Program-made: the position numbers and the translations under genes
Notes under the pieces: model-generated
What the model saw: the letters and a program-made list of their open reading frames with translations, nothing else
Told to the model about the DNA's origin: nothing
Database searches by the model: none
From: Blastococcus sp. URHD0036
Lineage (GTDB): Bacteria; Actinomycetota; Actinomycetes; Mycobacteriales; Geodermatophilaceae
DNA: 64,000 bases
NCBI RefSeq assembly: GCF_000701365.1
Contig: NZ_KL370778.1
Span: forward strand, 62,001 to 126,000
Direction: 5' to 3'
In this document: piece by piece, positions 1 through 17,099 of the stretch
Layout: the number at the start of each line of letters is the position of its first letter
Numbering within the stretch: the stretch's first letter is position 1

Positions 1-92
1 AGCGCCCCCACGTCGCGGTGGGGCAGGTCCAGGACGGCGACCTCGTCGCCCTCGCGGCGCGCCAGGCCCTCCGGCGTAGCGAGCAGGTCCAT
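1..92 (-). CDS. N-terminus of an unidentified protein (partial)
   Basis: An open frame starts with ATG at 92 and runs off the left edge, giving about 30 residues beginning MDLLATPEGLARREGDE with normal high-GC codon use. Two copies of the palindrome shared with other catabolic genes here lie just upstream at 110-126 and 135-151, so it probably belongs to the same regulon. Too little is visible to name a family. Confidence 0.55.
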   Translation of the reverse strand, partial: MDLLATPEGLARREGDEVAVLDLPHRDVGA

Positions 93-134: not shown

Positions 135-151
135 ACGAGACGACGTCCCGT
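135..151. promoter_or_regulatory. Regulon palindrome, copy 2
   Basis: ACGAGACGACGTCCCGT differs from the site at 1063-1079 only in its central base. The arms pair at 7 of 8 positions. With copy 1 it forms a tandem operator (25 bp start to start) between the aldo/keto reductase gene end and the partial gene. Confidence 0.6.
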
Positions 152-171
152 CCCGCGAGACGCCCGGGAAC

Positions 172-1050
172 TCAGTGGGCGAACGTCGTGGGGCGGGAGG
201 GGTCGATCGGCGCGTCGGTGATCCGTCCGATCTGCTCCGCCGACAGCTCCAGCCCGGCCGCGCCGGCGCTGTCGGTGATCGACGCCGGACGGGTCGAGCC
301 GGGGATGGCGACGACGGCCGGCGAGTGGGCCAGCAGCCAGGCCAGCGCGACCCGCTGGGGCGAGACGCCGAGCTCGGCGGCCACCTCGCGGGTCGCCTGC
401 GCCCGGGCCCCGCTCTCCGCGACCCCGGCCAGGGGTGTGTACGGCAGGAACGCCAGGCCGAGCTCCTCGGTCCGGCGCAGCATCGGCTCGCCCCAGCGGT
501 CCTCGACGGAGAACGGGTTCTGCACGCCGACCAGCCGGTCCCCGAGCACCTCGGCGGCGATGTCCAGCTTGGCGACGTCGACATTGCTCACCCCGACGGT
601 CCGCACCACGCCGTCGTCCACCAGGTCGCGCAGGGCGCCCACGGATTCCGCGTACGGCACGGAGGGGTCGGGCCAGTGCAGCTGGTAGAGCCCGATCGCC
701 TCGACGCCGAGGGCCTGCGCGCTCGCACGGGCGGCGGCGTGCAGGTGTTCGGGGGTGGCGCGGAAGTCCCAGGGCCGGACGAGCCCGCCCTTGGTGGCCA
801 CGAGGACGGTGTCGGCATCGCCGGACCAGCTCCGCAGCGCCGCGGCGACCAGCCGCTCGTTGTGGCCGATCTCGGTCTCGTCGGCGCAGTAGACGTCCGC
901 GGTGTCGACCAGCGTCACGCCGGCGTCGAGCGCCGCGTGCACGGTCGCCGCCGCGTGCTCCGCGTCGGGCCGATCCGGCCGGCTGGACAGATGCATCGCA
1001 CCCAGACCTACCGCGCCGACCTGCCGGGAACCGAGCTGTCGCTGCCGCAT
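172..1050 (-). CDS. Aldo/keto reductase
   Basis: A 292-residue NADPH-dependent carbonyl reductase of the AKR TIM-barrel family. The tetrad is visible: Asp49 and Tyr54 in DTADVY, Lys87 in VATKGG and His125 in YQLHWPDP. An IPGST segment near residue 255 fits the cofactor phosphate site. The ATG at 1050 is chosen because upstream frame is spacer containing the palindrome at 1063-1079. The gene is monocistronic, with its own promoter region after the terminator of the next operon. Its role is probably to reduce an aldehyde or ketone intermediate; the substrate is unknown. Confidence 0.9.
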   Translation of the reverse strand: MRQRQLGSRQVGAVGLGAMHLSSRPDRPDAEHAAATVHAALDAGVTLVDTADVYCADETEIGHNERLVAAALRSWSGDADTVLVATKGGLVRPWDFRATPEHLHAAARASAQALGVEAIGLYQLHWPDPSVPYAESVGALRDLVDDGVVRTVGVSNVDVAKLDIAAEVLGDRLVGVQNPFSVEDRWGEPMLRRTEELGLAFLPYTPLAGVAESGARAQATREVAAELGVSPQRVALAWLLAHSPAVVAIPGSTRPASITDSAGAAGLELSAEQIGRITDAPIDPSRPTTFAH

Positions 1051-1062
1051 GCGGCTCACACT

Positions 1063-1079
1063 ACGAGACGCCGTCCCGT
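1063..1079. promoter_or_regulatory. Regulon palindrome, copy 3
   Basis: ACGAGACGCCGTCCCGT lies 13 bp upstream of the aldo/keto reductase ATG, where a repressor would block transcription. Arms pair at 7 of 8 positions. The 16 bases from 1068 to 1083 recur exactly, inverted, at 20620-20635 in front of the amidase gene. Confidence 0.65.
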
Positions 1080-1125
1080 CATGTGAACCACCTTGGCGTG
1101 TTCGTCGGTGTCCTCGTGAGGTGTT

Positions 1126-1178
1126 GTCCGGCAGGCCGGCGGCCCCGTCCACCACGCGGGTGGGCGGGGTCGCCGGAC
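1126..1178 (-). terminator. Hairpin ending the oxidoreductase-methyltransferase operon
   Basis: The arms 1138-1153 and 1159-1174 pair over 16 bp (two G-T wobbles) around a 5-base loop, flanked by an outer GTCCGGC/GCCGGAC pair. It lies just past the VOC gene stop at 1187. There is no clear U tract, as is common in actinobacteria. Confidence 0.6.
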
Positions 1179-1186
1179 GGGCGGGG

Positions 1187-1654
1187 TCAGCCCCAGAGGT
1201 CCTGGATGGTCGCGAAGACCTTCTGGTTGTGGCTGAACTCCAGGACGTTGCCGTCGGGGTCCAGGACGGCGCAGATGTAGCCGATGTGCTCGGCCATCTG
1301 GGTCGGCTCCCACTGCAGCCGGCCCAGCTCCTTCGCCTTCGCCGCGACGTCGTCCACGTCGGACTTGTTGGGCAGCTCGATGCCGATGTGCGCCCACGGC
1401 GAGAACGTCGGGTCGGGCTTGCCGTCGACGATGCCGAAGCGGGCACCGACCTCGGGGATGAACTCCCCGAGCACGAGCACGAACGGCGTCTCGACCTGCC
1501 CGGGGTTGGACAGCCACGCGCTGCGGCCGCTCTCGTCGGCGTTCCGCTGCACGAGCACCAGCGGGGTCACCGACGTGTAGAACTCGATCGACCGGTCGAT
1601 GTCGGTGACGGGGATGGCCACGTGGGTCCAGCGGGCCTCGGTCAGTTGGGGCAT
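1187..1654 (-). CDS. VOC family (glyoxalase/dioxygenase-fold) protein
   Basis: A 155-residue single-unit vicinal-oxygen-chelate protein. His11 (WTHVAI), His89 (WAHIGIE) and Glu139 (NVLEFSHNQ) sit where VOC enzymes bind a divalent metal, so it is probably an enzyme and not only a binding protein. AGGAAGG precedes the ATG. It is the last gene of the operon starting at 5194 and a clear paralogue of the protein at 5748-6206, sharing the FYTS.TPLV, AWLSN, PFVLVL, HIGIE and SHNQKV blocks. The reaction (isomerase, dioxygenase, lyase) cannot be told from sequence. Confidence 0.85.
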   Translation of the reverse strand: MPQLTEARWTHVAIPVTDIDRSIEFYTSVTPLVLVQRNADESGRSAWLSNPGQVETPFVLVLGEFIPEVGARFGIVDGKPDPTFSPWAHIGIELPNKSDVDDVAAKAKELGRLQWEPTQMAEHIGYICAVLDPDGNVLEFSHNQKVFATIQDLWG

Positions 1655-1685
1655 GACGGTTCCTTCCTGGTGGGTGTTCGTCGGT

Positions 1686-3098
1686 TCAGAACGTGGGCCA
1701 CTTGGCCCGGTCGGGGAGCCCGGAGCGGGCGACGACGCCCTCGCCCGCGGCCTGGGCGCGGCGCAGCAGGTCGTCCTCGTCGATCGTGGTGCAGCGGTAG
1801 TCCTCGACCACGCGCCGTCCGCCGACGAGGACGGTGTGCACGCCGCGGCCGTCGGCGGACCAGACCAGCTGGTTGGCGACGTTGTGCAGCGGCCGCCACT
1901 CCGGGCGGTTCGTGTCGTGCAGCACCAGGTCGGCCTGCTTGCCCACCTCGATGGAGCCGAGCTCGTCCTCGGCCTGCAGCGCCTTCGCCCCGTTGCGGGT
2001 GGCCATGGCGAACGCGTCCTCGGCCGGGAACATCGTCGCGTCGCGCCGGGCGTCCTTGAACAGACCGGCCACGAGGTAGGTGGCCCGCATGAGGTCGTGG
2101 TAGTTCGACGCGTTGTTGCCGTCGGTGCCGATCGCCACGTTGACGCCCGCGGCGACCATCTCGGGGAACTTCCCGATCTGGGTGACGCCGTAGGAGACCT
2201 TGAGCGCCGTCGTCGGGCAGTGCGCGATCGAGGTGCCGGTCCGGGCCAGCGCGGCGATCTCGCTGTCGTCGACGTGGACGGCGTGGGTGAGCAGGACGTT
2301 GCGGTCGAGGACGCCGATCTCGTCGAGGTGGATCATCGGCCGCTGCCCGAAGGTGGCCAGGAAGCCCTCGGGGTCCATCGCGGCCGGGGACATGTGCGCG
2401 CTCATCCCGGTGCCGCGCTCGTCCGACATCCTCTTGGCGGTCTGCCACAGCTCGTCGCTGCAGGTCGTGTGCCCGATGACGATCGGCCAGGCCTGCACGC
2501 GCCCGTCGGCGGCCGAGCCGTAGGTGTCCATCGCGTAGGTCATCGCGCCGATCGCCTCGGCGGTGGTCATCCGCAGCGCCTCGTAGTCGCCCACCAGGTC
2601 CCACGCCCAGGGGCCCACCCGCGCCCGGATGCCGATCTCCGACAGCCCGTCGACGACGGGGTCGATGAAGCGGACCGTCCCGGCCTCCAGGAACGCCGTC
2701 GTCCCTGACTTGAGCATCTCCAGCGCGGCGAGCTGCGCGGAGATGTGCTCGTCCTCCTCGGTGTAGTGCGTGTGGATCGGGGTGAGCCACTCGAAGACGT
2801 TCTCGAGGAACGGGGTGTCGTCGGGCACGAAGCCGCGGGTCAGCGGCTCGCCGGTGATGTGCACGTGCGTGTTGATCAGGCCCGGGGTGACGACGAACCG
2901 CTCACCGCCGACGACCTCCCGCGCGTTCCAGCCGGCCGACAGCTCGGCCGCCGGGCCGACGTCGACGATCCGGCCGCCGCGGATCGCGATGGCACCGTCA
3001 CGGAAGACCCGGCGGTCGTCGTCCATCGTGACGACGTGCGAGCCGAGCACGAGGGTGTCGCAGGGCTGGCCCGTCGGTGCGGTGCTGTTCTCGGACAA
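1686..3098 (-). CDS. Amidohydrolase, TRZ/ATZ-like
   Basis: A 470-residue metal-dependent hydrolase of the subgroup with MTA/SAH deaminases and triazine hydrolases. The metal set is visible: His78 and His80 (NTHVH), His235, His272 (LTHAVH) and Asp326 (IGTDGNN). After His235 it reads HMSP, whereas deaminases of this group have HxxE with Glu as proton shuttle, so deamination should not be assumed. It lies 3 bp after the methyltransferase and 31 bp before the VOC gene in one operon. The protein at 11828-13228 is its paralogue. Substrate is probably a nitrogenous ring compound (inference). Confidence 0.85.
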   Translation of the reverse strand: MSENSTAPTGQPCDTLVLGSHVVTMDDDRRVFRDGAIAIRGGRIVDVGPAAELSAGWNAREVVGGERFVVTPGLINTHVHITGEPLTRGFVPDDTPFLENVFEWLTPIHTHYTEEDEHISAQLAALEMLKSGTTAFLEAGTVRFIDPVVDGLSEIGIRARVGPWAWDLVGDYEALRMTTAEAIGAMTYAMDTYGSAADGRVQAWPIVIGHTTCSDELWQTAKRMSDERGTGMSAHMSPAAMDPEGFLATFGQRPMIHLDEIGVLDRNVLLTHAVHVDDSEIAALARTGTSIAHCPTTALKVSYGVTQIGKFPEMVAAGVNVAIGTDGNNASNYHDLMRATYLVAGLFKDARRDATMFPAEDAFAMATRNGAKALQAEDELGSIEVGKQADLVLHDTNRPEWRPLHNVANQLVWSADGRGVHTVLVGGRRVVEDYRCTTIDEDDLLRRAQAAGEGVVARSGLPDRAKWPTF

Positions 3099-3101
3099 GG
3101 G

Positions 3102-4151
3102 TCACTCCTCGTTCTCGGGGGCGGGGGCCTCGGGGCGGATCAGGAAGACGGTCTGGCGGGGCACCGGTTGCAGGACGTCGGCCAGGGCGGCTCCGCCGTC
3201 GGCGGCCCAGGACCGCAGGTCGGCGACGGTGACGCCGACGCCGTCGGTGGCGGCGGTCATGGTCAGCGAGAGCAGGAGCTCGTGGCGGGCCCCGGCGAGG
3301 ACGGCGGCCCGGTCGGGATCGGGCGCGGCGACCGGGTCGGGCCGCGGGTAGTCGGCCACGACGACGACCCCGCCGGGCGCCAGCAGCTCCAGCGCCCGCA
3401 GCAGCAGCGCCCGGGCGCGGGCCGGCGGCTCCGCCCGCAGCACGTGCGCGAGGACGACGACGTCGGCGGACCCCGCGGCCAGCTCCACCTCGAGGTAGTC
3501 GCCCTCGAGCAGCGTGACGCCGGCGACGCCCTCCAGCGTCTCCCGCGCGACCGGCAGGACGCCGGGCAGGTCCACGCCCACCGCGGTGGCGCCGGGCCGG
3601 TCGGCGAGCAGCGCGGCCAGCCAGGCGCCCGATCCGCAGCCGAGGTCCACGACGGTCGGCGACGACGGCCACAGGTCCCGCTCGGCCAGCGCGGCGGCCA
3701 CGCCGGAGGCCACCGCCCGCTGGGTCGGCGCCGTGGCCCGCACGAGCTCCGGGTACATCGCGTCGAGCTCGTCCCGGGTGCCGGCCGCCACGGCGCCGCT
3801 GCGGACGGTCTCGGCCAGCTGCTGCCAGCCCGACCAGGGGCCGGGCGAGAGGCGGCCCAGCGCCGCCATCGAGGCCGGCGAGCCCGACACGAGGAACCGC
3901 TCGGCCACCGGGGTCAGCGCCACGGCCCGCCCGTCGCCGGTGAGCAGCCCCAGGGAGACCAGCACGTCGGCGAGCAGCGCCACCGCGTCGACGTCCTCGG
4001 CCGAGAGCCTCGCGGCCAGGTCGTCGGGCGGCAGCCCGCCCTCGGCCAACGCATCGAAGAGGCCCAGCTCCAGCGCGGCGGACAGGGCGCCGAACGCAGC
4101 CAGCCCGTTGACGACGTCCCAGACCGGGCCGGGCCCGACCGGCGCGGTCAC
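3102..4151 (-). CDS. SAM-dependent methyltransferase (plant O-methyltransferase-like)
   Basis: A 349-residue protein with a winged-helix dimerisation region (about 1-100) and a Rossmann methyltransferase domain. Motif I is VVDLGCGSGAW at 167-177; an acidic loop GVDLPG follows at about 192-197. The GTG start at 4151 overlaps the upstream TGA as GTGA, indicating translational coupling. The frame is open much further upstream, but that part overlays the oxidoreductase gene. Family members methylate O, N or C atoms of small aromatic molecules. Set between an oxidoreductase and an amidohydrolase, it may act in catabolism, possibly in reverse or on a by-product. Confidence 0.82.
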   Translation of the reverse strand: MTAPVGPGPVWDVVNGLAAFGALSAALELGLFDALAEGGLPPDDLAARLSAEDVDAVALLADVLVSLGLLTGDGRAVALTPVAERFLVSGSPASMAALGRLSPGPWSGWQQLAETVRSGAVAAGTRDELDAMYPELVRATAPTQRAVASGVAAALAERDLWPSSPTVVDLGCGSGAWLAALLADRPGATAVGVDLPGVLPVARETLEGVAGVTLLEGDYLEVELAAGSADVVVLAHVLRAEPPARARALLLRALELLAPGGVVVVADYPRPDPVAAPDPDRAAVLAGARHELLLSLTMTAATDGVGVTVADLRSWAADGGAALADVLQPVPRQTVFLIRPEAPAPENEE

Positions 4152-5194
4152 GGCCGCAGCACGATCTTGCCGGTGGCCCGCCGCGACTCCATGTGCCGCT
4201 GCGCGTCGGCGGCGTCGGTCAGGGCGAACTCGCTGTCCACCGGGGTGCTGAAGCCCGAGCTCCAGTACCGCTCGAGCATCGGCCCGAACTCCCGGCGGTC
4301 GTAGGGGTCGGAGCCGAGGAAGCGCAGGCCGAAGTGGTAGGCGTAGACGAGGTCGAAGGACGTCCGGTCGCCGGTGGTGTTGCCGAGGAAGACCATCCGG
4401 CCGCGCGGCGCCATGCTGTAGACCGAGGCGTCCCAGACGGCCGGGCCGACGTGGTCGACGACGAGGTCCACCCCGCGGCCGTCGGTGAAGCCGCGCGCGG
4501 CCCCGACCAGGTCGGTGCTCGACGTGTCGATCACGAGGTCGGCGCCCAGGCCCTCGGCGTAGGCCACCTTGGCCGGGCTGCTGACCGTGGTCACCACCCG
4601 CGCACCCGCGGCCTTGGCCAGCTGGATCGCGGCGGTGCTGACGCCGCTGGCGCCGGCGTGCACGAGCACCGTCTCCCCGGCGGCGACCGCGGCCACCTCG
4701 ACGAGGGCGTGCCAGGCGGTCATCCAGACCGTCGGCACGGTGGCGGCCTCGACCAGGCTCACCCCGTCCGGCACGAGGTGCACGTTCGCGGCCGGGACGA
4801 CGACGTAGTCGGCGTAGCCGCCGGCCACGTTGCCGCCGACGACGCGCGCGGTGCCGCACAGCCCGTCGGCCCCGCTGCGGCAGGCCGGGCAGTCGTCGCA
4901 GGGGATCGCCGGGTTGACCACCACCCGGGTCCCCGAGCGGGCCGCCGGGAAGGCGACGACGTCGACCCCGGGGCCGAGGCCGACGACGGTGCCGGCGACG
5001 TCCATGCCGGCCACGTGCGGCAGCGCGTACCCGGGGATGAGGGCGGGCCCGCGGCGCTGGAGGACGTCGAGGTGGTTCAGCCCGCAGGCGGCGACGGCGA
5101 CGAGCACCTCGCCGGGGCCGGGCTGCGGCACGTCGGAGTCGACGATCTCGAGGACGTCGGCGTCGCCGTGCGTTCGGTAGAGGACGTTCTTCAC
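4148..5194 (-). CDS. Zinc-binding alcohol dehydrogenase / quinone oxidoreductase family
   Basis: A 348-residue medium-chain dehydrogenase. Cys37 and His60 fall at catalytic-zinc positions, and Cys99, Cys102, Cys105 and Cys113 form the structural zinc lobe. The nucleotide site is in the second half (VHAGASGVS). The GTG at 5194 is chosen because GGGAG lies 7 bases upstream and homology to the paralogue at 13225 begins there. It is the first gene of a four-gene operon (oxidoreductase, methyltransferase, amidohydrolase, VOC). Both paralogues sit beside paralogous amidohydrolases, so they probably act in consecutive steps on related substrates. Confidence 0.87.
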   Translation of the reverse strand: MKNVLYRTHGDADVLEIVDSDVPQPGPGEVLVAVAACGLNHLDVLQRRGPALIPGYALPHVAGMDVAGTVVGLGPGVDVVAFPAARSGTRVVVNPAIPCDDCPACRSGADGLCGTARVVGGNVAGGYADYVVVPAANVHLVPDGVSLVEAATVPTVWMTAWHALVEVAAVAAGETVLVHAGASGVSTAAIQLAKAAGARVVTTVSSPAKVAYAEGLGADLVIDTSSTDLVGAARGFTDGRGVDLVVDHVGPAVWDASVYSMAPRGRMVFLGNTTGDRTSFDLVYAYHFGLRFLGSDPYDRREFGPMLERYWSSGFSTPVDSEFALTDAADAQRHMESRRATGKIVLRP

Positions 5195-5297
5195 TGGAGG
5201 ACTCCCGGGGGTGGACCGATGGGGTCCGGCCGGGCGCACGTCGCACGCCCGATCGGCATGCAACGGCGGGATCCAGCGGGCGTCGTCGCCGCGCTCC

Positions 5298-5329
5298 CCC
5301 ACCCCGGTCTGTTGCCAACTCGGGGTGGG
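5298..5329 (-). terminator. Hairpin ending the ABC importer operon
   Basis: CCCACCCCG (5298-5306) pairs perfectly with CGGGGTGGG (5321-5329) across a 14-base loop. It lies just downstream of the SnoaL-like gene stop on the minus strand, inside the 150-bp gap before the next operon. I see no copy of the 17-bp palindrome in this gap. Confidence 0.55.
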
Positions 5330-5344
5330 TCGTGGGGGGGTCGG

Positions 5345-5755
5345 TCAGGGGGCCGCAGCGTCCACGGCCGCGATCTGCGCGGCGACCACCTCCCCGTCCC
5401 AGTAGTCGGCGCGGGCGGCGACCAGGCCGTCCCGGACATGGAAGCGGAAGACGCCGCGGACGTCGAGGGGCACCGCCGGGGCACCGTCGCGCTGCATGAG
5501 GGCGGTCATCCGGTACGCCAGCGCCGCACGGTCGCCGTCGACCAGCAGCTCCTCGACGTCGTACCGCAGGCCGGAGAAGCCCGTGAGGAAGCCGGGCAGG
5601 CGCTCCCGGTAGGCGGCCCGCCCGGTGAGGCTGCTCCCCCGCGCGCTGGTGTGCTCGTTGACGAAGTCCTCCGTCACGCAGCCGGCGACGCCGTCGGCGT
5701 CCCCGGCGTTCAGCGCGGCGAGGTAGCCGAGGACGGCGTCGCGGGTCTCACTCAG
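5345..5755 (-). CDS. SnoaL-like / NTF2-fold protein
   Basis: About 136 residues with the cone-shaped NTF2 pattern: an N-terminal helix with LAALNAGDADGVAGCV, a central FLTGFSGLRYDVEELLVDGD strand region, and a C-terminal F.V.DGLVAARADYWD strand. Family members are polyketide cyclases, isomerases and ester-cyclase-like proteins. No ATG or GTG fits in frame; the likeliest start is CTG at 5755, overlapping the VOC gene stop by 8 bp. It is the last gene of the long operon. A role in isomerising or hydrolysing a ring-opened intermediate is possible. Confidence 0.72.
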   Translation of the reverse strand: MSETRDAVLGYLAALNAGDADGVAGCVTEDFVNEHTSARGSSLTGRAAYRERLPGFLTGFSGLRYDVEELLVDGDRAALAYRMTALMQRDGAPAVPLDVRGVFRFHVRDGLVAARADYWDGEVVAAQIAAVDAAAP

Positions 5756-6206
5756 CGGTGCCCCACTTGGCGCGCACGAGCTCGTACACCTTCTGGTTGT
5801 GCGAGATCTCGATGACGTTGCCGTCGGGGTCGTTGAGCGCGCAGATGTAGCCGACGACGCCGGGCATGTCCCGCGGCTCCCAGTGCAGGTTCCCGGCCTC
5901 GCGGGCCTTGTCGGCGATCGCGTCGACGTCCTCCCGGTTCGGGACCTCGATGCCGATGTGCGCGAACGGCTTGAGCAGGCCCAGCTGCTGGCCCTTCGAG
6001 GAGTTGAAGGAGACGAGGACCAGCACGAACGGCGAGTCGGCCTGCTTGTCGTTGGACAGCCACGCACTCTCGCCGGCCTCGTCGGCGAACCGCTCGACGA
6101 CGACCAGCGGGGTCAGCGACGTGTAGAACTCGATCGAGGCGTCCAGGTCGCCGCAGGGCAGGGCGACGTGCGTCCAGCGGGCCTCGGGGAGCGCGGGTCC
6201 GGTCAT
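5748..6206 (-). CDS. VOC family (glyoxalase/dioxygenase-fold) protein
   Basis: A 152-residue paralogue of the VOC protein at 1187-1654. Candidate metal ligands are His13 (WTHVAL), His83 (FAHIGIE) and Glu133 (NVIEISHNQ). It follows the importer genes after a 43-bp gap holding AAGGAG near the start. A VOC gene near the end of each catabolic operon suggests both pathways use the same type of metal-dependent ring or C-C step. The exact reaction is unknown. Confidence 0.85.
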   Translation of the reverse strand: MTGPALPEARWTHVALPCGDLDASIEFYTSLTPLVVVERFADEAGESAWLSNDKQADSPFVLVLVSFNSSKGQQLGLLKPFAHIGIEVPNREDVDAIADKAREAGNLHWEPRDMPGVVGYICALNDPDGNVIEISHNQKVYELVRAKWGTAE

Positions 6207-6249
6207 CAGGGGTACTCCTTCTCGGGATCGGCGACGGTGCCGGTCGGGC

Positions 6250-7158
6250 TCACACGAGCCCTCTCTCGAACGGTTTGGCCAGCGCCCGGGGCTCCCGCTG
6301 CGACTTGGCCATGAGCACCATGACCGTCAGCGCGAGGAGGTAGGGCGCCGCGACGAGCAGTTGGGCGTTGAGCTCCACGCCCAGCGACGGCAGCGCCAGC
6401 CGCAGCGCGTCGGCGGCGCCGAACAGGAAGCAGGCGAGCATGGTGCCCTTGAGCCGCCAGGCACCGAAGATCACCGCCGCGATGACGATGAACCCGCGGC
6501 CGGCGGTCATGTTGTTGTTGAAGGAGCCGACCAGGCCGACCGACAGGTAGGCCCCGCCCAGCCCGGACAGCAGGCCGCACCACATGAGCGCCTGCCGGCG
6601 GCGCAGGTTCACCTTGATCCCGCTGACGTCGGCGGCCTGCGGGTTCTCCCCGACGGCGCGCAGCTCCAGCCCCCACCGGGTGCGGTTGACGAGGTACCAG
6701 GTCAGCGGGACGACGCCCACCAGCAGGTAGAACGGCCAGCGCTGGTCGAACACGACGCCGAGCATCGGGATGTCGGCGAGTCCGGGTATCCGCAGCACGG
6801 CGACCTGCGTGCGGGAGAACTCCATGATCTGCGTGAGGAAGCTCGTCACGCCGAGGACCAGGGTGTTGATCACCAGGCCGACCACGAAGGTGTTGATCTG
6901 GATCCGGTGCGACAGGTTGGCGTGCACCAGGGCGACGACCAGGCCGATCAGCGCGCCGGCGAACAGGCCGACGCTCGGGCTGCCGGTCGCGCTGCCGACC
7001 GCGATCGCGCCGAAGGCGCCCGAGAGCATCATCCCCTCGACTGAGATGTTCAGCGTCCCCGCGCGCTCGGCGAGGTACTCACCGCAGGCGGCGAAGGCCA
7101 GCGGAGCGGTCAGGCGCAGGGCGCTGGAGAGCACCGTGCCACCGTCGTCGAGCCACAT
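6250..7158 (-). CDS. ABC transporter permease, nucleoside/BMP type (second permease)
   Basis: A 302-residue integral membrane protein with about 8-9 hydrophobic segments and the conserved LNISVEGMML block near residue 38, typical of BmpD/YufQ-type permeases that move nucleosides or related compounds. The ATG overlaps the previous gene's TGA by one base. With the other permease, the ATPase and the lipoprotein it forms a complete importer. Context suggests the transported compound feeds the amidohydrolase pathway. Confidence 0.88.
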   Translation of the reverse strand: MWLDDGGTVLSSALRLTAPLAFAACGEYLAERAGTLNISVEGMMLSGAFGAIAVGSATGSPSVGLFAGALIGLVVALVHANLSHRIQINTFVVGLVINTLVLGVTSFLTQIMEFSRTQVAVLRIPGLADIPMLGVVFDQRWPFYLLVGVVPLTWYLVNRTRWGLELRAVGENPQAADVSGIKVNLRRRQALMWCGLLSGLGGAYLSVGLVGSFNNNMTAGRGFIVIAAVIFGAWRLKGTMLACFLFGAADALRLALPSLGVELNAQLLVAAPYLLALTVMVLMAKSQREPRALAKPFERGLV

Positions 7159-8356
7159 CAGACCGGCACCTCTTCCTTGGCGGGCGCGGCGGCCGACGGC
7201 CGGGCGGGGGTCTCGGCGACGGCGGAGCGGTTGCGGAGACGGCGGCCCCACAGCGCGGACAGCACGGGCGGGACGACGAAGGCCAGCACCAGCAGCGCCT
7301 GGATGACGTCGACCAGGTAGTCGGGCACCCCGGTGGCGGCCAGGTAGCTGGAGCCGGCGCGCAGGCCGCCGAACAGCACGGCCACCGGGACCGCCAGCCC
7401 CGGGCGACTGCGGGCGACGAGGGCCACGAGCAGACCGTCCCACCCGTAGTTGTTGGAGATCGCCGGCTGGAGCCGGAACACCGTGCCCAGCAGGATGACG
7501 CCGCCGGCGAGCCCGGCGAAGGCCCCCGACAGGACGAGGGCCGAGCCGCCCAGGCGGGAGGCGCGGATGCCGGCGTGCCGGGCGGCCATGGGGTTGAGGC
7601 CCAGCATGCTGAGCCGGAAGCCCCAGCGGCTGCGGCCCAGGAGCACCGCCAGCACGACGGCGGCCAGGAGGGCGAGGATCACGCCCACGCCGATGGTCAG
7701 GTCGGGGTACTGGCCGAAGCTGGCCAGCCGCAGGAACTCCGGCACCGAGTCCGACTGCGGCCGGGCCGGCCCGTTGCCGATGCCGGTCTCCTGCAGCAGC
7801 GAGGGGCTCAGGACGGCGAACTGCACCACCTGGATGGCGATGAAGGTGAGCAGCAGCGTCGACACGACGACGTTGACGCCGCGGGTGTAGTACATCGCCG
7901 CGCTGATGCCCGACCAGGCGCCGCCGCCGGCCGCGGCCGCGACGAGCGCGACGCTGATGACCAGCCAGCCGGGCCCCTGCAGGCGCAGGGCGACGAAGCA
8001 GCCGACCATCGCGCCGATGAGCAGCTGGCCCTCCTGGCCGATGTTGAAGACCCCGGCCCGGTTGGCGATGCACGCACCGAGGGCCACCAGCAGCAGGGGC
8101 GCGGCGTTGACGAGCGTCTGCGACCAGCCCGCGGCGTCGGCGATGCTGCCGGTGTACAGGGCGTCCACGACCTCGGACGGCGAGCCGTCGGAGATCGTCA
8201 CGAGCAACCCGGCCAGCAGCACCGCGACGGCGACGCAGCCCACGGTGATGGCCGCGGTCCGCCACGCGTCGGCACCGGGCCGGCGCAGCCCCATGCCGCC
8301 GACGACGTAGGCGGCCAGCGGCCGCCGCGCGGGGGCGGGCGTCGGGGAGGGGGCGC

Positions 8357-8360
<4 letters not shown>
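7158..8360 (-). CDS. ABC transporter permease, nucleoside/BMP type (first permease)
   Basis: A 400-residue permease of the YufP type, longer than its partner at both ends. It carries the family block NRAGVFNIGQEGQLL near residue 103, about ten hydrophobic segments, and a charged C-terminal tail of roughly 30 residues. ATGA overlap with the ATPase gene and a one-base overlap with the next permease indicate a tightly coupled operon. It should form the heterodimeric pore with the product of 6250-7158. Confidence 0.88.
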
Positions 8361-9985
<1,625 letters not shown>

Positions 9986-9988
9986 GCG

Positions 9989-11086
9989 TCAGCTCCCCAG
10001 GCGCTCGACCTCGGCGTCGGGGTCGATGGTGCCGTCCCCGACCGAGGCGATGAAGTCCGCCAGCTGCTGCTCCTGCTCGGGCGTCGCGCCACTGGCGTCG
10101 CAGAACTGGACGGTCGGCAGCGGGTCGACACCCATCTTCCACAGGCGGGTCGTGCCGCCCTCGAGCTCGCCGTTGGCGAAGTCCTCCAGCGCCGCGGCGA
10201 AGTACTCACCCGGGTCGAAGATCACCGAGATGGCGTAGGTGTCGTCGCTGCAGCGGTCCGTGCCGGGCGTCAGGACGGGGATGTCCGCGTCGAAGCCCAG
10301 CTGGGCCGCCGCGTCGGTGGCGCCACCCAGGTACGGGTAGAGCCCGCCGATGCCCTGGCCGATCTGCGCCTGGGTGGCCTCCACGGCCAGGCCCGAGTCG
10401 TCGAAGTCGCCGGTGTAGGTGGTGACGACCTCGGCGTCGGGCACCAGCTGCCGGACGCCGGCCTGGAAGGCCTGCGCGGCGATGATGCTGAAGTCCAGCT
10501 CGGGGCCGGTGACGAAGCCCGCCGTCGTCGCGCCGCTGTCCTGCATCAGCAGGCCGAGGGCGTAGCCGGCGGCCAGCAGGGACTCCGACGCCGAGTCCTG
10601 GGAGAGGACGACGTTGTCGGCGAGCTCGTAGCCCTCCGTCTGCGACGGCAGGTACCAGATCGTGTCCGCGCAGACGTCCTCCTCGGCCGCCGGCAGGGCG
10701 TCGGCGAGCTCGGAGGCGGCCAGCGCGACCATGTCGACGCCCTGGCGGCACATGTTGCGGGCCTGCTCCAGCGCGTCGGCCGGGTTGATCGACCCGACCT
10801 GGATCAGCTCCCAGCCGTCCTGCTCGTCGACGAACTCCTGCGCCTTGACGACGAAGGACTCGTAGTAGCCGTTGTCGTTGAGGTCGCCGGGGCTGAGGAC
10901 GCCGATCTTGACGTCGCCGTCGCCGTTGACGTCCGGCTGCTCGCCCGAGGCGTTGCTGCCGCCGCCGGAGGAGCCGCCGTCGGACCCGCCGTCGGAGTCG
11001 TCGGCGTTGTTGCCGCAGGCGCTCAGCGCGACGACCGCGACAGCGGCCAGCGCGGCGGTGCGCCGCAGCGGTCTGGTGGTGGACAT
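9989..11086 (-). CDS. BMP-family substrate-binding lipoprotein
   Basis: A 365-residue exported lipoprotein: positive N-terminus, hydrophobic stretch and lipobox LSAC with Cys24, followed by a Gly/Ser/Asp-rich tether to about residue 50. The rest matches the Bmp/Med/PnrA fold that binds nucleosides or similar heterocycles. It captures substrate outside the membrane for the importer encoded by the next three genes. It follows the flavin reductase gene after an 82-bp G-rich gap with no gene. Confidence 0.9.
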   Translation of the reverse strand: MSTTRPLRRTAALAAVAVVALSACGNNADDSDGGSDGGSSGGGSNASGEQPDVNGDGDVKIGVLSPGDLNDNGYYESFVVKAQEFVDEQDGWELIQVGSINPADALEQARNMCRQGVDMVALAASELADALPAAEEDVCADTIWYLPSQTEGYELADNVVLSQDSASESLLAAGYALGLLMQDSGATTAGFVTGPELDFSIIAAQAFQAGVRQLVPDAEVVTTYTGDFDDSGLAVEATQAQIGQGIGGLYPYLGGATDAAAQLGFDADIPVLTPGTDRCSDDTYAISVIFDPGEYFAAALEDFANGELEGGTTRLWKMGVDPLPTVQFCDASGATPEQEQQLADFIASVGDGTIDPDAEVERLGS

Positions 11087-11168
11087 TGCTGCCTCCTGTG
11101 GTTCAGGGGGTGGGGGGACGGGGGCGGGGTGCTGTGGAGCCGGTGGTGCGGTGTGCTGCGCGACCGGC

Positions 11169-11831
11169 TCAGCCGGCGCTGTCGACCAGGTCCGCGTACG
11201 CGACGCGCTCCTGCTCGAAGACGGCGTCGCCCGTGGCGGCGACGAAGTAGGGGAAGCCCATGCGGCCGACGGCGGCGACCCGGGTGGGGTCGATCCGGGT
11301 CTCGCTGCCCTCGGCGAGCAGCTCCTCCGACACCCGGATGTTCACGACCTCGGCCAGGACGATGTGCACCCCGGAGAAGCAGGAGGTGGGGTCGCCGCGG
11401 TCGATCGACTCCAGCACGCGGCACTCCATGTGCGCCGGGCTCTCGGCCACCGACGGCGCGGCGACGACCTCCGACGGCCGGGTGGTCCAGCCGACCAGCT
11501 CGGCCTCGTCCACGCCGGCCGGGTACTCGCGGGCCACGGTCTCGATGTGGTCGGCCATCGCCGTCGTCGTCAGGTTGATGACGAACTCGCCGGTCGCCTC
11601 GAGGTTCACCCAGGTGTCCTTGGGCTCGGGCGTGGCCTCGCGGACCGTGCCGATGGTGACGGCGACGGTCGGCGGCAGGCCGCAGACCGGCATGAAGTAG
11701 CTGAAGGGCGCCACGTTCACGCCGGCCGGGCCGGTCGTGGAGATCATGGCGATCGGCCGGGGCACCACGAGCTGGGAGAGCAGCCCCTGGAGCTGGGCCG
11801 GCGAGCGGCCGCCGAGGTCGATGGTCTTCAC
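11169..11831 (-). CDS. Flavin reductase-like (split-barrel FMN-binding) protein
   Basis: A 220-residue protein of the flavin reductase-like family: VVPRPIAMIST near residue 22, NVAPFSYFMPV near 40, and HMECRV near 133. Family members reduce FMN with NAD(P)H for two-component monooxygenases or bind FMN for other chemistry. It overlaps the amidohydrolase stop by 4 bp (ATGA). No monooxygenase partner is obvious in the operon, so it may serve an oxygenase elsewhere or act directly on the substrate. Confidence 0.84.
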   Translation of the reverse strand: MKTIDLGGRSPAQLQGLLSQLVVPRPIAMISTTGPAGVNVAPFSYFMPVCGLPPTVAVTIGTVREATPEPKDTWVNLEATGEFVINLTTTAMADHIETVAREYPAGVDEAELVGWTTRPSEVVAAPSVAESPAHMECRVLESIDRGDPTSCFSGVHIVLAEVVNIRVSEELLAEGSETRIDPTRVAAVGRMGFPYFVAATGDAVFEQERVAYADLVDSAG

Positions 11832-13228
11832 GTGCGCGGACCTCCGGGGACGAGGGCCGACCGGACCGGCCAGCTGGTGGGGGCGTCGATGCCGGCGCGG
11901 CGCAGCAGCGCGGCCCGGCGGCCTGCCGCCTCCTCGCGGAGGGCGGGCAGGTCGACGGTGGTGACGGAGCCGTCGCGGACGACGGGGCGGCCGTCGACGA
12001 GGACGTCGCGGACGGTGCCGCTGGGAGCACCCCAGACGAGCTGCAGGGCGAGGTCACCGCGCGGCGTCCAGGCCGGTGCGGTGCCGTCGAAGACGACGAG
12101 GTCGGCGCGCTTGCCCACCTCGATCGAGCCGACGACGTCGCCGAGGCCCAGCGCCTCCGCGCCGGTCCGCGTGGCGACGGCGAAGGCGTCCGCGGCGGTC
12201 AGCGGCGGCGCGCCCGCCCGGGTGTCGCGGGAGACCCCCGCCAGCAGCCAGGCCGCGCGCAGCACGTCCGGGGTGTCCCCGGCGTTGTGCGAGTCGCAGC
12301 CCAGGGCCAGCCGTCCGCCCGCGCGGAGGAACTCGGCGTGCCGGGACGCCGTGACGTAACCCTGACCCAGGCGCAGGTAGGCCCCGGGGCAGACGGCGAT
12401 CGCGGTGCCGGTGTCCAGCAGGGTGGCCAGCTCGTCGTCGTCCAGGTGGACGCCGTGCCCGAGCACCAGCCGCGGGCCGAGGACACCCAGGTCGGCGAGG
12501 TGGGTGACCGGCCGCTTGCCGCTGCGGGCGGCGTAGGCGAGGCCGTCGGCGTCGCTGGGCGACAGGTGCCAGGTGACCTGCGTGCCGGCCCGCTCGGCGA
12601 GGTCGGCCGCGGCGGCGAAGAGCTCGTCGCTGGCGAGGTCGTGGCCGACGAGGGTCACCCAGGCGCCGACGACGCCGCCGGGCGGGAGGTCGGCCAGCAG
12701 CTGCTCCTGGCGGCCGACGACCTCGGCCACCGGAGCCGACCAGGGGAGACCGGGGGTGTCCCAGCCCCACATGCCGACGCGGGCGCGGATGCCGGCGGCG
12801 GACAGGCCGCGGGCGACCGACAGCGGGTGGGCCACGGTGCCGGGCTCGGCGATCGTGGTGACGCCGTTGGTCAGGGCCTCGACGGCGGTGAGGGTGGCCG
12901 AAAGCTCGTCGTCGCCGGGCTCGTGGCCGGCGTGGATCGGCACCGCCCAGTCGAAGATCGCCTGCTGCGCGTCGATGTCGTCCGGGATCGTGCTGCGGAT
13001 CAGCGGGTCGCCGGTGGTGTGCTGGTGCGCGTCGACCAGGCCGGGGGTGACCACGCAGCCGGCCGCGTCGATCTCCTCGGCGCCCGGGTACGCGGCCCGC
13101 AGCTCCGCCGCCGTCCCCAGCGCGGCGATCGCGCCGTCGACCACGGCGACGGTGGTCCGCTCCAGCACCGCCCGGTCCGGGCCCATGGTGACCACGTCGC
13201 CGTCCACGACGAGCAGCGCGGCGCTCAC
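11828..13228 (-). CDS. Amidohydrolase, TRZ/ATZ-like (paralogue)
   Basis: A 466-residue paralogue of the enzyme at 1686-3098. Metal residues are His68 and His70 (DAHQH), His221, His258 (LGHGVH) and Asp312 (GCDSHN). It too reads HLSP after His221, lacking the HxxE glutamate of related deaminases, so this is a shared subgroup trait and not an error. The GTG at 13228 overlaps the oxidoreductase stop (GTGA). Probably cleaves a C-N, C-X or ring bond of the compound brought in by the adjacent importer. Confidence 0.85.
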   Translation of the reverse strand: MSAALLVVDGDVVTMGPDRAVLERTTVAVVDGAIAALGTAAELRAAYPGAEEIDAAGCVVTPGLVDAHQHTTGDPLIRSTIPDDIDAQQAIFDWAVPIHAGHEPGDDELSATLTAVEALTNGVTTIAEPGTVAHPLSVARGLSAAGIRARVGMWGWDTPGLPWSAPVAEVVGRQEQLLADLPPGGVVGAWVTLVGHDLASDELFAAAADLAERAGTQVTWHLSPSDADGLAYAARSGKRPVTHLADLGVLGPRLVLGHGVHLDDDELATLLDTGTAIAVCPGAYLRLGQGYVTASRHAEFLRAGGRLALGCDSHNAGDTPDVLRAAWLLAGVSRDTRAGAPPLTAADAFAVATRTGAEALGLGDVVGSIEVGKRADLVVFDGTAPAWTPRGDLALQLVWGAPSGTVRDVLVDGRPVVRDGSVTTVDLPALREEAAGRRAALLRRAGIDAPTSWPVRSALVPGGPRT

Positions 13229-14247
13229 GGGATCACCAGCACGCGGCCGACGGTGCTGCGGTCGCAGAGCACGTCCTGCGCGGCGCCGGTCTCCTCGAGC
13301 GGGTAGCTGCCGGCGACCAGCGCCGTCCCGCCGTCGGCGAACAGCTGCAGGGCCGCGGCCATGTCGCTGGGCACGTAGCCACCGGCACCGAGCAGCTCCA
13401 GGCCGCGGTGGAAGGCGTCGGAGAGGGAGAAGGTGACCGAGTCGCCGGTGGTGTTGCCGAGGAACACCAGCCGGCCGCCGATCCGCAGGGCGGCCAGGGA
13501 CGTGGCCCAGGTGGCCGGGCCCAGGTACTCGAGGACGACGTCGACACCGCGGCCGCCGGTGACCTCGGCGACGAGGGCGCCCACCGCGTCGGGCCCGGAG
13601 GCGATGTGCTCGACGCCGATCTTCCCCAGCGCGGCCGCCTTCTCCGGGCTGCCGACCGTCGCGATCACGTGCGCGCCGACGCGCTGGGCGATCTGCACCG
13701 CGGCCAGGCCGACGTTGCCGGCCGCGGCGTGCACCAGCAGGGTCTCCCCCGCCCGCAGCCGGCCGACGGTGACGACGGCGTGGAAGGCGGTGGCCCAGGG
13801 GGTCGGCAGGCAGGCGGCGTCGACCAGGTCCACCGTGTCGGCCAGCACGTGCGCGGCCGAGGCCGGCGCGACGACGTACTCGGCGAGGCCGCCGTCGACG
13901 GTGGCGCCGATGATCCGGAGGTTGGGGCAGTGGCCGCCGCGGCCCTCGTGACAGAGCGGGCAGGCGCCGCAGGGGACACTGGGGTCGAGGACGACGCGGG
14001 CGCCGACCGGCACCGGGGACTCCTCGCCGGCCGCCTCCACGACGCCGGCGACGTCCATCCCGGCCACGTGCGGCAGCGCGAGCCCGGGCAGCCGGACGTC
14101 GCCCCGGCGCTGCAGGACGTCGAGCTGGTTGAGCCCGCAGGCAGCGACTCTGACCAGCACGTCGGCCGGGCCGGGCACGGGGACCGGGACGTCGGTGAGA
14201 GACAGCACCTCGGGGCCACCGAAACCGGTCTGGACCATCGCTCGCAC
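13225..14247 (-). CDS. Zinc-binding alcohol dehydrogenase / quinone oxidoreductase family (paralogue)
   Basis: A 340-residue paralogue of the protein at 4148-5194, sharing the AACGLN.LDVLQRRG and LPHVAGMDVAG blocks. Cys37 and His60 are candidate catalytic-zinc ligands; Cys93, Cys96, Cys99 and Cys107 form the structural lobe. The GTG at 14247 is preceded by AGGAGG. It heads the nine-gene operon ending at 5345. Upstream lie a half copy of the regulon palindrome (14280-14289) and a GTTACG/CGTAAC inverted repeat. Confidence 0.86.
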   Translation of the reverse strand: MRAMVQTGFGGPEVLSLTDVPVPVPGPADVLVRVAACGLNQLDVLQRRGDVRLPGLALPHVAGMDVAGVVEAAGEESPVPVGARVVLDPSVPCGACPLCHEGRGGHCPNLRIIGATVDGGLAEYVVAPASAAHVLADTVDLVDAACLPTPWATAFHAVVTVGRLRAGETLLVHAAAGNVGLAAVQIAQRVGAHVIATVGSPEKAAALGKIGVEHIASGPDAVGALVAEVTGGRGVDVVLEYLGPATWATSLAALRIGGRLVFLGNTTGDSVTFSLSDAFHRGLELLGAGGYVPSDMAAALQLFADGGTALVAGSYPLEETGAAQDVLCDRSTVGRVLVIP

Positions 14248-14279
14248 CGCCGCTCCACCTCCTTCCCCGAAGACCTCGC

Positions 14280-14289
14280 CCGTCTCGCA
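14280..14289 (-). promoter_or_regulatory. Half-site of the regulon palindrome
   Basis: On the minus strand TGCGAGACGG matches the first ten bases of palindrome copy 1 (109-118), but the other half is degenerate. It lies 33 bp upstream of the GTG that starts the importer operon. Weak evidence by itself. Confidence 0.3.
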
Positions 14290-14373
14290 TCGTGAATCGG
14301 CGAATCACCATGTGGACCGGTGCGGTCACTGTGGTCGGCCCGGCGCGGCCCTGTCAACGGTCGGGTCGAGCCC

Positions 14374-14398
14374 GTTACGCAATCAACGTGGACGTAAC
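14374..14398. promoter_or_regulatory. GTTACG/CGTAAC inverted repeat
   Basis: GTTACG and CGTAAC are separated by 13 bp in the 227-bp gap between the alcohol dehydrogenase stop and the start of the importer operon. It could be an operator for that operon. The rest of the gap contains no gene I can support. Confidence 0.3.
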
Positions 14399-14474
14399 AC
14401 AGCTGGCCCCCTGAGTGACACGCGTCACCGGTGCGGAGTGGTGACGGTCACGTCGCAGGTCACGGCCGGTGCAC

Positions 14475-15581
14475 TCACGCGTCGAACGTGAGCACCGCCT
14501 TGCCGACCCGCCCGGCCCGGACGTCGTCCAGCGCGCGGTTGACCTCGGCGAACGGGTAGTGCGTCAGCAGCCCGTCGACCGGGAAGCGCCCGGCGCGGTG
14601 CAGCTCGACCAGCCGCGGCAGGAACTCCTGCGGCACGCTCGCCCCGGCGGTGATGCCGACGACGGAGCGGCCCGTGCCGAGGATGGAGCGCCACTCGAAC
14701 GACATCTCCGCGCTCGCGCCCACGCCGATCACCCCGCAGACGCCCAGCGGGGCCAGCGACTCCACGGCCGCGCGGAGCACGTCCGCCCGGCCGGTGGTGT
14801 CGAGGCTGTACTGCAGGCCGCCCGGGACCTCGGCCCGCACCCGCTCCGCCAGGTCCGGCTCGCCCGCGGCGACCGTGTGCGTCGCACCGAGCTCGCGCGC
14901 CTGCTCCAGCTTCGCGGGGTTCACGTCGACCGCGACGATGGTCGTGCAGCCGGCCTCGACCGCCCCCAGGATCGCCGCCGCGCCGACCGCGCCGGCACCG
15001 AAGACGCCGATCGAGCTGCCGGGCGCGGGCCGGAGCACGTTGAGCACGCCCCCCGCGCCGGTCTGGAAGCCGCAGCCGAACGGGCCGACGACGGTGAGGT
15101 CGGTGCCCTCGGGGACCTTGACGACGCTGCCGCGGCGGGCGACCACGTGGGTGGCGAAGGAGGACTGACCGAGGAAGTGGCCGTGCACCGGCGCGCCGTC
15201 CTCGCTCAGGGCCGTGCTGCCGTCGGGGCGGGTGCCGATGAAGTTGTAGGCCCAGAAGTTCTCGCAGTAGGCCATCGCGTCGGCCCGGCAGGGGCCGCAC
15301 TCGCCGCAGAACGCGAAGGTCATCGCGACCGGGTCGCCGACGGCGAGGTCGGTCACGCCCTCGCCGACCTGCTCGACGATCCCGGCGCCCTCGTGCCCGA
15401 GCACCACGGGCGGGGTCATCATGGAGCGGAACTCCAGGTCGGTGCCGCAGATGCCGGTGCTCACCAGCCGCACCACCACCTCGTCGGCGCGGGGCGGGGC
15501 CAGCTCCAGTTCGACGAGCTCCAGGGGTCCTGCGGGGTCGCGCAGGACGGCGGCGGTCACGGCAGTGGGTCGACCGGTCAT
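14475..15581 (-). CDS. NAD-dependent zinc alcohol dehydrogenase (aryl-alcohol type)
   Basis: A 368-residue medium-chain dehydrogenase. Catalytic zinc residues are Cys45 (GICGTD) with His63-Glu64 (GHEGAG); the structural zinc lobe is Cys92, Cys95, Cys98 and Cys106; the NAD site is GVFGAGAVG near residue 181. It resembles benzyl/aryl-alcohol dehydrogenases. It is divergent from the aldehyde dehydrogenase, sharing a 60-bp promoter with a copy of the regulon palindrome. Expected to oxidise an alcohol made by the P450 to the aldehyde used by the next enzyme. Confidence 0.9.
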   Translation of the reverse strand: MTGRPTAVTAAVLRDPAGPLELVELELAPPRADEVVVRLVSTGICGTDLEFRSMMTPPVVLGHEGAGIVEQVGEGVTDLAVGDPVAMTFAFCGECGPCRADAMAYCENFWAYNFIGTRPDGSTALSEDGAPVHGHFLGQSSFATHVVARRGSVVKVPEGTDLTVVGPFGCGFQTGAGGVLNVLRPAPGSSIGVFGAGAVGAAAILGAVEAGCTTIVAVDVNPAKLEQARELGATHTVAAGEPDLAERVRAEVPGGLQYSLDTTGRADVLRAAVESLAPLGVCGVIGVGASAEMSFEWRSILGTGRSVVGITAGASVPQEFLPRLVELHRAGRFPVDGLLTHYPFAEVNRALDDVRAGRVGKAVLTFDA

Positions 15582-15641: not shown

Positions 15642-17099
15642 ATGACGACGGCCGTGCGCGACGGGCTCAACTTCATCGACGGGGCCTGGACCCCGGCCGC
15701 GGGCGGTGGCCGGCTGGAGCTGGTCGACCCCGCGACGGGTCAGCCGTTCGCCACGGTGGCCGAGGGCAGCGGGGCCGACGTCGACGCCGCGGTCGCCGCG
15801 GCCCGGCGCGCGGCCCCCGGCTGGGCGGCCACCAACCCCAGCGACCGGGGTGCGCTGATCACCCGCTGGTCGCAGCTGGTCTTCGAGAACGCCGAGCGGC
15901 TGGCGGCGCTGGAGGCCCAGGACGTCGGCAAGCCGCTGTCGGGCGGCCGGATGAACGCCTTCATCGCCGGCGGGATCATCGGCTACTTCGGCGGTGCCGC
16001 CGACAAGCTCACCGGCGTCACGCTGCCCACCCGGACGCCGGACTTCCACGGCTACACGCTGATGGAGCCGCTCGGCGTGTGCGCGGTCATCACGCCGTGG
16101 AACGTGCCCGCCGTCCTGACCGCGGCCAACGCCGCTCCCGCGCTCGCCGCGGGCAACGCCGTCGTCCTCAAGCCGTCAGAGGTCGCCCCGCTCGTGGTGC
16201 TGGCGCTCGTCGAGCTGGCGGCCGAGGCCGGGATCCCGGCCGGCGTCCTCAACGTGGTCACCGGCGGTCCCTCGGCCGGCGCCGCGCTGTCCGGGCACGC
16301 CGACGTCGACCACCTCAGCTTCGTCGGCTCCACCGCGACCGGCCGGGCGATCATGCGCGCGGCGGCGGAGAACCTGATCCCCGTCAAGCTCGAGCTCGGC
16401 GGCAAGTCGCCCAACCTGCTCTTCGCCGACGCCGACCTCGACGCCGCCATCCCCGCCATCGTCGGCTCGATCACCGAGAACGCCGGGCAGAACTGCTACG
16501 CCGGCTCCCGGCTGGTGGTGGACGAGTCGATCGCCGACGAGGTCCGCGAGCGGGTCGTCGAGGCGATGCGCGCGGTGCGGGTCGGCGCCTGGGACGAGGA
16601 CCTGGACATGGGCCCGCTGGTCAACGCCACGCAGCGGGACCGGGTTCTCGGCTTCCTCACCGAGCTGCCGGCCACCGGCGCGCGGGTGCTCACCGGCGGC
16701 GGCGTGCCCGGCGACCGGGACGCCGGCTGGTACGTCGAGCCGACCGTGGTCGACGGCGTAACCCCCGACTCCCGGATCGTCCGCGAGGAGGTCTTCGGGC
16801 CGGTCCTGGCGCTGCAGACCTTCCGCGGCGACGGCGAGGCTCTTGAGCTGGCCAACCGCACCGACTTCGGGCTGCTGTCCTGCATCTGGACCTCAGACGT
16901 CTCCCGGGCGCTGCGGATGGCCGCCGGGGTGCGCAGCGGCCAGGTCGCGGTCAACCAGTTCCACGACGCCGGCGTCATCGGCTTCCCGTTCAACATGCAG
17001 AAGGACAGCGGCTTCTCCCGCGGCGGTGGCTACGCCGCCATGCGGGAGTACACGCAGGAGAAGGCGGTCGCGATCCGCCTGCTCCCGCCGCGCGGCTAG
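15642..17099 (+). CDS. Aldehyde dehydrogenase
   Basis: A 485-residue NAD(P)-dependent aldehyde dehydrogenase. The catalytic residues are Glu251 (ELGGKSPN) and Cys285 (GQNCYAGSR), with the cofactor segments TPWNVP near 151 and FVGSTATG near 227. The length is normal. It is followed 69 bp later by the P450 fusion in the same direction and is divergent from an alcohol dehydrogenase. Together they make a hydroxylation, alcohol, aldehyde, acid route. The aldehyde is not identifiable. Confidence 0.93.
   Translation: MTTAVRDGLNFIDGAWTPAAGGGRLELVDPATGQPFATVAEGSGADVDAAVAAARRAAPGWAATNPSDRGALITRWSQLVFENAERLAALEAQDVGKPLSGGRMNAFIAGGIIGYFGGAADKLTGVTLPTRTPDFHGYTLMEPLGVCAVITPWNVPAVLTAANAAPALAAGNAVVLKPSEVAPLVVLALVELAAEAGIPAGVLNVVTGGPSAGAALSGHADVDHLSFVGSTATGRAIMRAAAENLIPVKLELGGKSPNLLFADADLDAAIPAIVGSITENAGQNCYAGSRLVVDESIADEVRERVVEAMRAVRVGAWDEDLDMGPLVNATQRDRVLGFLTELPATGARVLTGGGVPGDRDAGWYVEPTVVDGVTPDSRIVREEVFGPVLALQTFRGDGEALELANRTDFGLLSCIWTSDVSRALRMAAGVRSGQVAVNQFHDAGVIGFPFNMQKDSGFSRGGGYAAMREYTQEKAVAIRLLPPRG

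Follow-up and report, generated by a model that had tools for sequence, protein, structure and literature searches.

The closest described system to the genes analysed here is the riboflavin/lumichrome catabolic pathway of Nocardioides simplex, which has been reconstituted and is encoded by the cluster lumA-Y (PMC12746152). It gave the first complete aerobic route for riboflavin, in late 2025, and within it the block lumH-M dismantles the pyrimidine ring (PMC12746152). The present analysis concerns two adjacent gene sets, designated A and B, in Blastococcus sp. URHD0036 (genome size 5.2 Mb). They are located in a window of 64,000 nucleotides (the whole stretch of DNA that was analysed), which corresponds to positions 62001-126000 of contig C18 (NZ_KL370778.1). 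The two sets are embedded in a larger cluster, the flanks of which correspond to the lum cluster, and we consider it probable that together they make up the central section of a variant riboflavin/lumichrome cluster, where the substrate is dismantled and where they would replace LumH-M.

A lumichrome-type cluster surrounds A and B

A family-level search with the P450 of the Blastococcus cluster identified eight Nocardioides-like genomes with a P450 of 58-59% identity. In G859 and G761, the neighbours of the P450 reproduce the described lum cluster by gene order, domain and mass, and include an isochorismatase-like LumI, a xanthine-oxidase LumJ, the thiamine pyrophosphate pair LumK/L and the amidohydrolase LumM. 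Of the 28 proteins of the Blastococcus cluster, 16 have a reciprocal best hit among the proteins of the Nocardioides-like lum cluster. They comprise the Rieske and ring-cleavage proteins (LumC 72%, LumD 55% and LumE 67% identity), the lower pathway (LumW 69%, LumX 55%, LumY 66%), the importer genes (40-54%), and IclR (67%), LumN (62%), LumU (58%), LumV (56%, measured with a Blastococcus orthologue that is about 89% identical to the FAH protein of the present genome), LumF (49%) and LumT (33%).

The cluster has about 28 genes and extends over approximately 51.1-81.4 kb of C18, that is, window positions 1-19355 together with 11 kb to the left. A and B form its middle and are not a stand-alone pathway; in this respect an original prediction, made from the sequence of the window alone, was incomplete. 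The left flank, outside the window, encodes an FAH-family protein, a LumW-like amidohydrolase, an HpcH aldolase, a cupin, an IclR protein, Rieske alpha and beta subunits, a Dabb-glyoxalase dioxygenase, an M20-like protein, a ribokinase-like protein and a TauD-like oxygenase. To the right of A and B are an alcohol dehydrogenase, an aldehyde dehydrogenase and a LumU-like protein that combines P450, reductase and 2Fe-2S domains in a single chain of 728 aa.

Compared with lumA-Y of N. simplex (PMC12746152), the cluster has in common the P450, the aldehyde dehydrogenase, the Rieske alpha and beta subunits, the extradiol dioxygenase, LumF/V/W/X/Y and IclR. It differs in containing A and B, the TauD-like oxygenase, the ribokinase-like protein and an aldo/keto reductase, and in lacking lumH-M. 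The BMP-type importer is common to the Blastococcus cluster and the Nocardioides-like lum genomes. The earlier statement that no described pathway has this gene set holds for the exact set of genes; the flanks match a characterised lumichrome cluster.

A and B take the place of lumH-M

A LumM orthologue was not found in a genome-wide search of the Blastococcus genome, where the best generic match is 34% identical; the identity between LumM and A3 is only 26%. LumM is present at 90% identity or more in seven of the eight Nocardioides-like genomes, whereas ten genomes with A/B genes contain only generic matches (at most 34%). B2 shows the reverse pattern: all ten A/B genomes have it at 51% or more, and none of the Nocardioides-like ones does. 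The TauD-like oxygenase is distributed in the same way (at least 63% in 10/10, and 0/8). LumM and the A/B amidohydrolases are mutually exclusive across these 18 genomes. A VOC protein of the A4/B8 family was also not found in G859.

The comparison of gene content shows A and B in the position of lumH-M, apparently as a replacement and not as an addition. Because they stand where unrelated enzymes are normally found, they look like a second route for dismantling the flavin ring, not yet described. Such a non-homologous route through the pyrimidine ring would combine a clade of amidohydrolases lacking the catalytic Glu with the zinc oxidoreductase and VOC proteins that accompany them. In most genomes it would also include a 2-oxoglutarate oxygenase, which may cleave off the ribityl chain; we regard the case for this specific proposal as evenly balanced.

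A and B are paralogous gene sets

The zinc oxidoreductase, TRZ/ATZ-type amidohydrolase and VOC protein originally predicted in each set were all recovered on the minus strand, and domain scans agree with these assignments. So were the additional genes, namely a methyltransferase in A, and a BMP-type importer, a flavin-reductase-like protein and a SnoaL-like protein in B. In each pair the relationship clearly exceeds the background. A1 and B1 (MDR oxidoreductases) are 44% identical over 349 aa, A3 and B2 (amidohydrolases) 41% over 453 aa, and A4 and B8 (VOC) 57% over 154 aa. The background for the amidohydrolases is given by their next-best relative in the same genome, at only 30%. In the amidohydrolase tree, the A-type and B-type proteins form sister clades, each with support of 100/99, and LumM and the other paralogues of the genome fall outside them. 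In the MDR tree the A1 proteins form a supported clade, outside which the B1 proteins fall. Judged from these alignments and trees, the gene pairs are true ancient paralogues.

Given the great size of the MDR, COG0402 and VOC families, and since NCBIfam equivalog cut-offs were missed, the two sets might be unrelated operons that are adjacent by chance and whose likeness reflects common families. This is extremely improbable. The amidohydrolases form specific sister clades, the gene order is conserved in Blastococcus and Trujillonella, which share the A/B arrangement, and in several other families the A and B blocks are rearranged yet retained; a chance origin is contradicted by these conservation data and by the co-occurrence described below.

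Both gene sets are present as predicted, but they cannot be clearly divided into two operons: only 150 bp separate B9 from A1, which has the same orientation, and a scan of this gap (of low power in DNA of 74% GC) found no promoter-like or terminator-like match.

Distribution of A and B

Among 250 sampled genomes of the order, seven have an A-type VOC, and every one of these has a B-type VOC as well (Fisher p = 1e-11 when genomes are counted and 4e-4 when genera are, ignoring relatedness beyond genus). Among 393 Streptomyces genomes, A3 is found in three, each time inside a lum-type cluster, and B-type genes occur elsewhere in 3/3. In the G012 group the two blocks are apart, A by itself at 5.77 Mb and B together with the lum core at 0.8 Mb. 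The lum core is accompanied by B but not by A in G015 and G229 (of these two, the neighbourhood was inspected in G015). The lum core is found with A, with B or with both, depending on the genus, and wherever A was seen, a B-type amidohydrolase was present too, even when not linked to it. This constant company favours one system, and A is dispensable in G015 and G229. It is concluded that the A and B blocks are one system, of which B is the more constant part. Independent pathways for unrelated substrates are disfavoured, because A always occurs with B.

The importer had been predicted to be specific to one set, but this is an accident of gene order: in Streptomyces, an importer of the type found in the Blastococcus set B adjoins set A, and Nocardioides-like lum clusters carry an importer as well. 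The suggestion that the sets represent either one duplicated pathway or sequential rounds is left with evidence on both sides, since the absence of A without B favours one system, and B with the lum core occurs without A in G015 and G229. It is conceivable, though we rate it somewhat below even, that the two sets are parallel triads for two related substrates of the flavin pathway (regioisomers, or compounds at the riboflavin and lumichrome levels) and do not catalyse successive steps. Each triad of oxidoreductase, amidohydrolase and VOC is complete, the duplication of the amidohydrolase is old according to the tree, and the gene content of G015 and G229 implies that one triad can suffice; against this, independent substrates should give some genomes with A only. 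Parallel triads would be compatible with A and B as the central part of a variant flavin cluster.

A recurring cluster with a B-type amidohydrolase was observed in Streptosporangiaceae, Streptomyces and Embleya (L043, L044, L050, L061, L063 and L066, although the amidohydrolase was not called in every locus). It also contains VOC, SnoaL, an aldo/keto reductase, aldehyde and alcohol dehydrogenases, an FGGY kinase, a single Rieske protein and a DeoC-like aldolase. Most of these loci add HyuA/HyuB, an AMP-ligase or RraA, and no lum core was seen nearby. An A-type amidohydrolase (49% identical to A3) occurs outside Actinomycetota, on plasmid pSA1 of Novosphingobium resinovorum (L162:14995-17198), where a TauD-family oxygenase comes directly after it.

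The amidohydrolases and VOC proteins

The A and B amidohydrolases share their fold and metal site with the TRZ/ATZ (COG0402) amidohydrolases, such as AtzA and the methylthioadenosine/S-adenosylhomocysteine deaminases, but differ from them in that the general acid/base Glu is replaced by Pro. In 18 aligned sequences, the metal-site residues H78, H80, H235, H272 and D326 (HxH, His, His, Asp) are invariant, and so is Pro238, which stands in place of the catalytic Glu of the deaminase motif HxxE in 18/18. The resulting HxSP motif is present in all full-length A/B-type amidohydrolases. The replacement makes a hydrolysis chemistry unlike that of ordinary deaminases likely.

The nearest fold to A3 is AtzA (4v1x, TM 0.89). 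No curated or equivalog cut-off in NCBIfam was reached, including those of the atrazine/triazine hydrolase families; the top model of any kind for A3 was 5'-deoxyadenosine deaminase (284 bits, cut-off 522), and the highest-scoring chlorohydrolase model gave 258 bits (cut-off 609). A triazine, guanine or nucleobase deaminase pathway is rejected, given the lack of the catalytic Glu and the scores below every family cut-off.

The AlphaFold model of A4 has a mean pLDDT of 93.9, and His11, His89 and Glu139 are conserved and are likely metal ligands. A role for the VOC protein as a ring-cleaving extradiol dioxygenase is not supported: the protein is closest in fold to glyoxalase I and FosA, and LumE is already present in the cluster.

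Links to riboflavin

The second system for comparison is the riboflavin lyase (rca) cluster of Microbacterium maritypicum G10. The Blastococcus cluster is similar to it in having a ribokinase-like gene, and the Blastococcus genome differs in being without RcaE. On plasmid NZ_CP108854.1 of Streptomyces sp. NBC_00841, a related cluster is adjoined by an operon of flavokinase (635978-636436), flavin reductase, the RcaE monooxygenase (636988-638334) and PfkB kinase. The monooxygenase matches the PDB entry 5w48, 'Riboflavin Lyase', with 696 bits. A TauD gene lies 3.3 kb from this operon and is followed by LumF/E/D/C, ferredoxin, reductase, IclR and LumY/X/W/V, and then by A1-A4, SnoaL, the importer, B2, aldehyde dehydrogenase, alcohol dehydrogenase and P450. 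The authors of the lum pathway knew of no strain having RcaE and the lumichrome genes together (PMC12746152); this plasmid shows RcaE together with lumichrome-type genes.

A second link is found on a contig of a metagenome-assembled genome of Microbacterium sp. (JAEKKN010000008.1, L057:3352-9056), where a B-type amidohydrolase and VOC have riboflavin synthase and RibBA immediately upstream. A lumazine-synthase-like open reading frame, assigned by reading, is also upstream of this pair. The contig is only 18 kb long and has a transposase-like open reading frame nearby, so that misassembly is possible.

Proposed pathway and its alternatives

The cluster is likely to function in flavin catabolism; a catabolic role had been predicted, with flavins among the candidate substrates. 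We infer the step performed by each A and B enzyme as follows. The BMP-type importer would bring in a flavin, and the ribityl chain would be removed, possibly by the Fe(II)/2-oxoglutarate TauD-like oxygenase of the cluster, with the neighbouring ribokinase receiving the ribose; in the case of the Streptomyces plasmid, RcaE could remove the chain. The LumU-like P450 with the alcohol and aldehyde dehydrogenases would convert an aryl methyl group to the carboxylate. B2 and A3, with their partner zinc oxidoreductase and VOC proteins and the SnoaL protein, would open and strip the pyrimidine ring, which elsewhere is the job of LumH/I/M/K/L/J. The product would enter the conserved lower pathway of Rieske oxygenase, extradiol dioxygenase, pyrone hydrolase LumW, hydratase LumY and aldolase LumX, to give pyruvate and acetoacetate. 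In G049, a malate synthase gene adjoins a second TauD-like gene in the cluster region (L112:4908-7480), which hints that glyoxylate is a product in that genome.

Several points weigh against this assignment. The Lum labels in G859 and G761 come from gene order, domain and mass, 'Nocardioides-like' is an inferred taxonomy for this group, and their LumH (464-500 aa) is a poor fit to the published 80 kDa, perhaps because of a tag. The RcaE link comes from one plasmid and the link to riboflavin synthesis from one contig. No LumA/LumB-like reductase or ferredoxin was found in the Blastococcus cluster, although relatives carry them: a reductase is present in G015, NBC_00841, G1021 and G912, and with a ferredoxin in G012. 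TauD is missing from three Streptomyces A genomes and hence cannot be essential to every variant.

The remaining points would also suit a cluster that degrades some other alkylated N-heteroaromatic (quinoxaline, benzimidazole or pteridine-like), using a borrowed lum core for the benzenoid half and A/B for a non-flavin heterocycle. As well as LumM, no counterpart of LumH, I, J, K or L was found in the Blastococcus cluster (the genome-wide search covered LumM only), the LumT counterpart is distant, and no RcaE homologue was found in the genome at E<=1e-40. Streptosporangiaceae clusters have the B-type amidohydrolase, VOC and SnoaL with no lum core seen nearby, so these genes may act on other substrates. 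We nevertheless consider a non-flavin substrate unlikely, given that the Rieske and ring-cleavage enzymes share 67-72% identity with those of the Nocardioides-like set, that an RcaE operon adjoins a related cluster on the Streptomyces plasmid, and that genes for riboflavin synthesis neighbour the B-type pair of L057.

A TauD-like oxygenase as the universal substitute for RcaE is not supported, because the NBC_00841 plasmid has both and the three Streptomyces A genomes have no TauD and, near the cluster, no RcaE. Substitution is a possibility in the Blastococcus genome, where TauD adjoins the ribokinase-like gene.

Features of the window

The features are listed in Table 1. The aldo/keto-reductase-like protein has orthologues of 81-86% identity in the same position in L032-L035; other A/B clusters have a different aldo/keto reductase, only distantly similar, which adjoins the VOC gene. 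The position of A2 between A1 and A3 is kept in the A loci examined, and B3 orthologues (68-77%) adjoin B2 in L112 and L117. Two adjacent PF04909 amidohydrolase-family proteins at 59230-61581 are unrelated to A and B.

Table 1. Genes of sets A and B and adjoining cluster genes, in window coordinates.
Feature	Position	Strand	Remarks
FAH-family gene, 5' end (LumV counterpart; continues left of window)	1..92	-	gene model 290 aa
Aldo/keto-reductase-like protein	172..1050	-	start approximate
A4, VOC-family protein	1187..1654	-	family assignment by domain scan
A3, COG0402-type amidohydrolase	1686..3098	-	HxSP in place of HxxE
A2, class I O-methyltransferase	3102..4151	-	PF08100 + PF00891
A1, zinc-dependent MDR oxidoreductase	4148..5194	-	
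B9, SnoaL-like protein	5345..5755	-	conserved beside B8 in related loci
B8, VOC-family protein	5748..6206	-	domain scan + tree
B7, ABC permease (BPD_transp_2)	6250..7158	-	54% reciprocal best hit, Nocardioides-like lum cluster
B6, ABC permease (BPD_transp_2)	7158..8360	-	40% reciprocal best hit, same cluster
B5, two-domain ABC ATPase	8357..9985	-	51% reciprocal best hit, same cluster
B4, BMP/PnrA-type substrate-binding lipoprotein	9989..11086	-	41% reciprocal best hit, same cluster
B3, flavin-reductase-like split-barrel protein	11169..11831	-	weak PDB relatives 1eje, 3bpk, 4z85
B2, COG0402-type amidohydrolase	11828..13228	-	HxSP in place of HxxE
B1, zinc-dependent MDR oxidoreductase	13225..14247	-	
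Zinc alcohol dehydrogenase	14475..15581	-	LumT position, only 33% identical
Aldehyde dehydrogenase	15642..17099	+	LumN counterpart (62%)
Single-chain P450/reductase/ferredoxin	17169..19355	+	LumU counterpart (58%)

Significance

The A/B feature is real and well conserved. It represents a known type of pathway in variant form, the middle section of which is uncharacterised. In several families of actinobacteria the lum core is combined with a different middle section. The catabolism of vitamins is still poorly mapped, and lumichrome is a plant-growth and quorum-sensing signal. If the proposed role of A and B is true, it would predict new hydrolase chemistry for the flavin ring, widen the known range of lumichrome degraders and provide about 30 testable genes.
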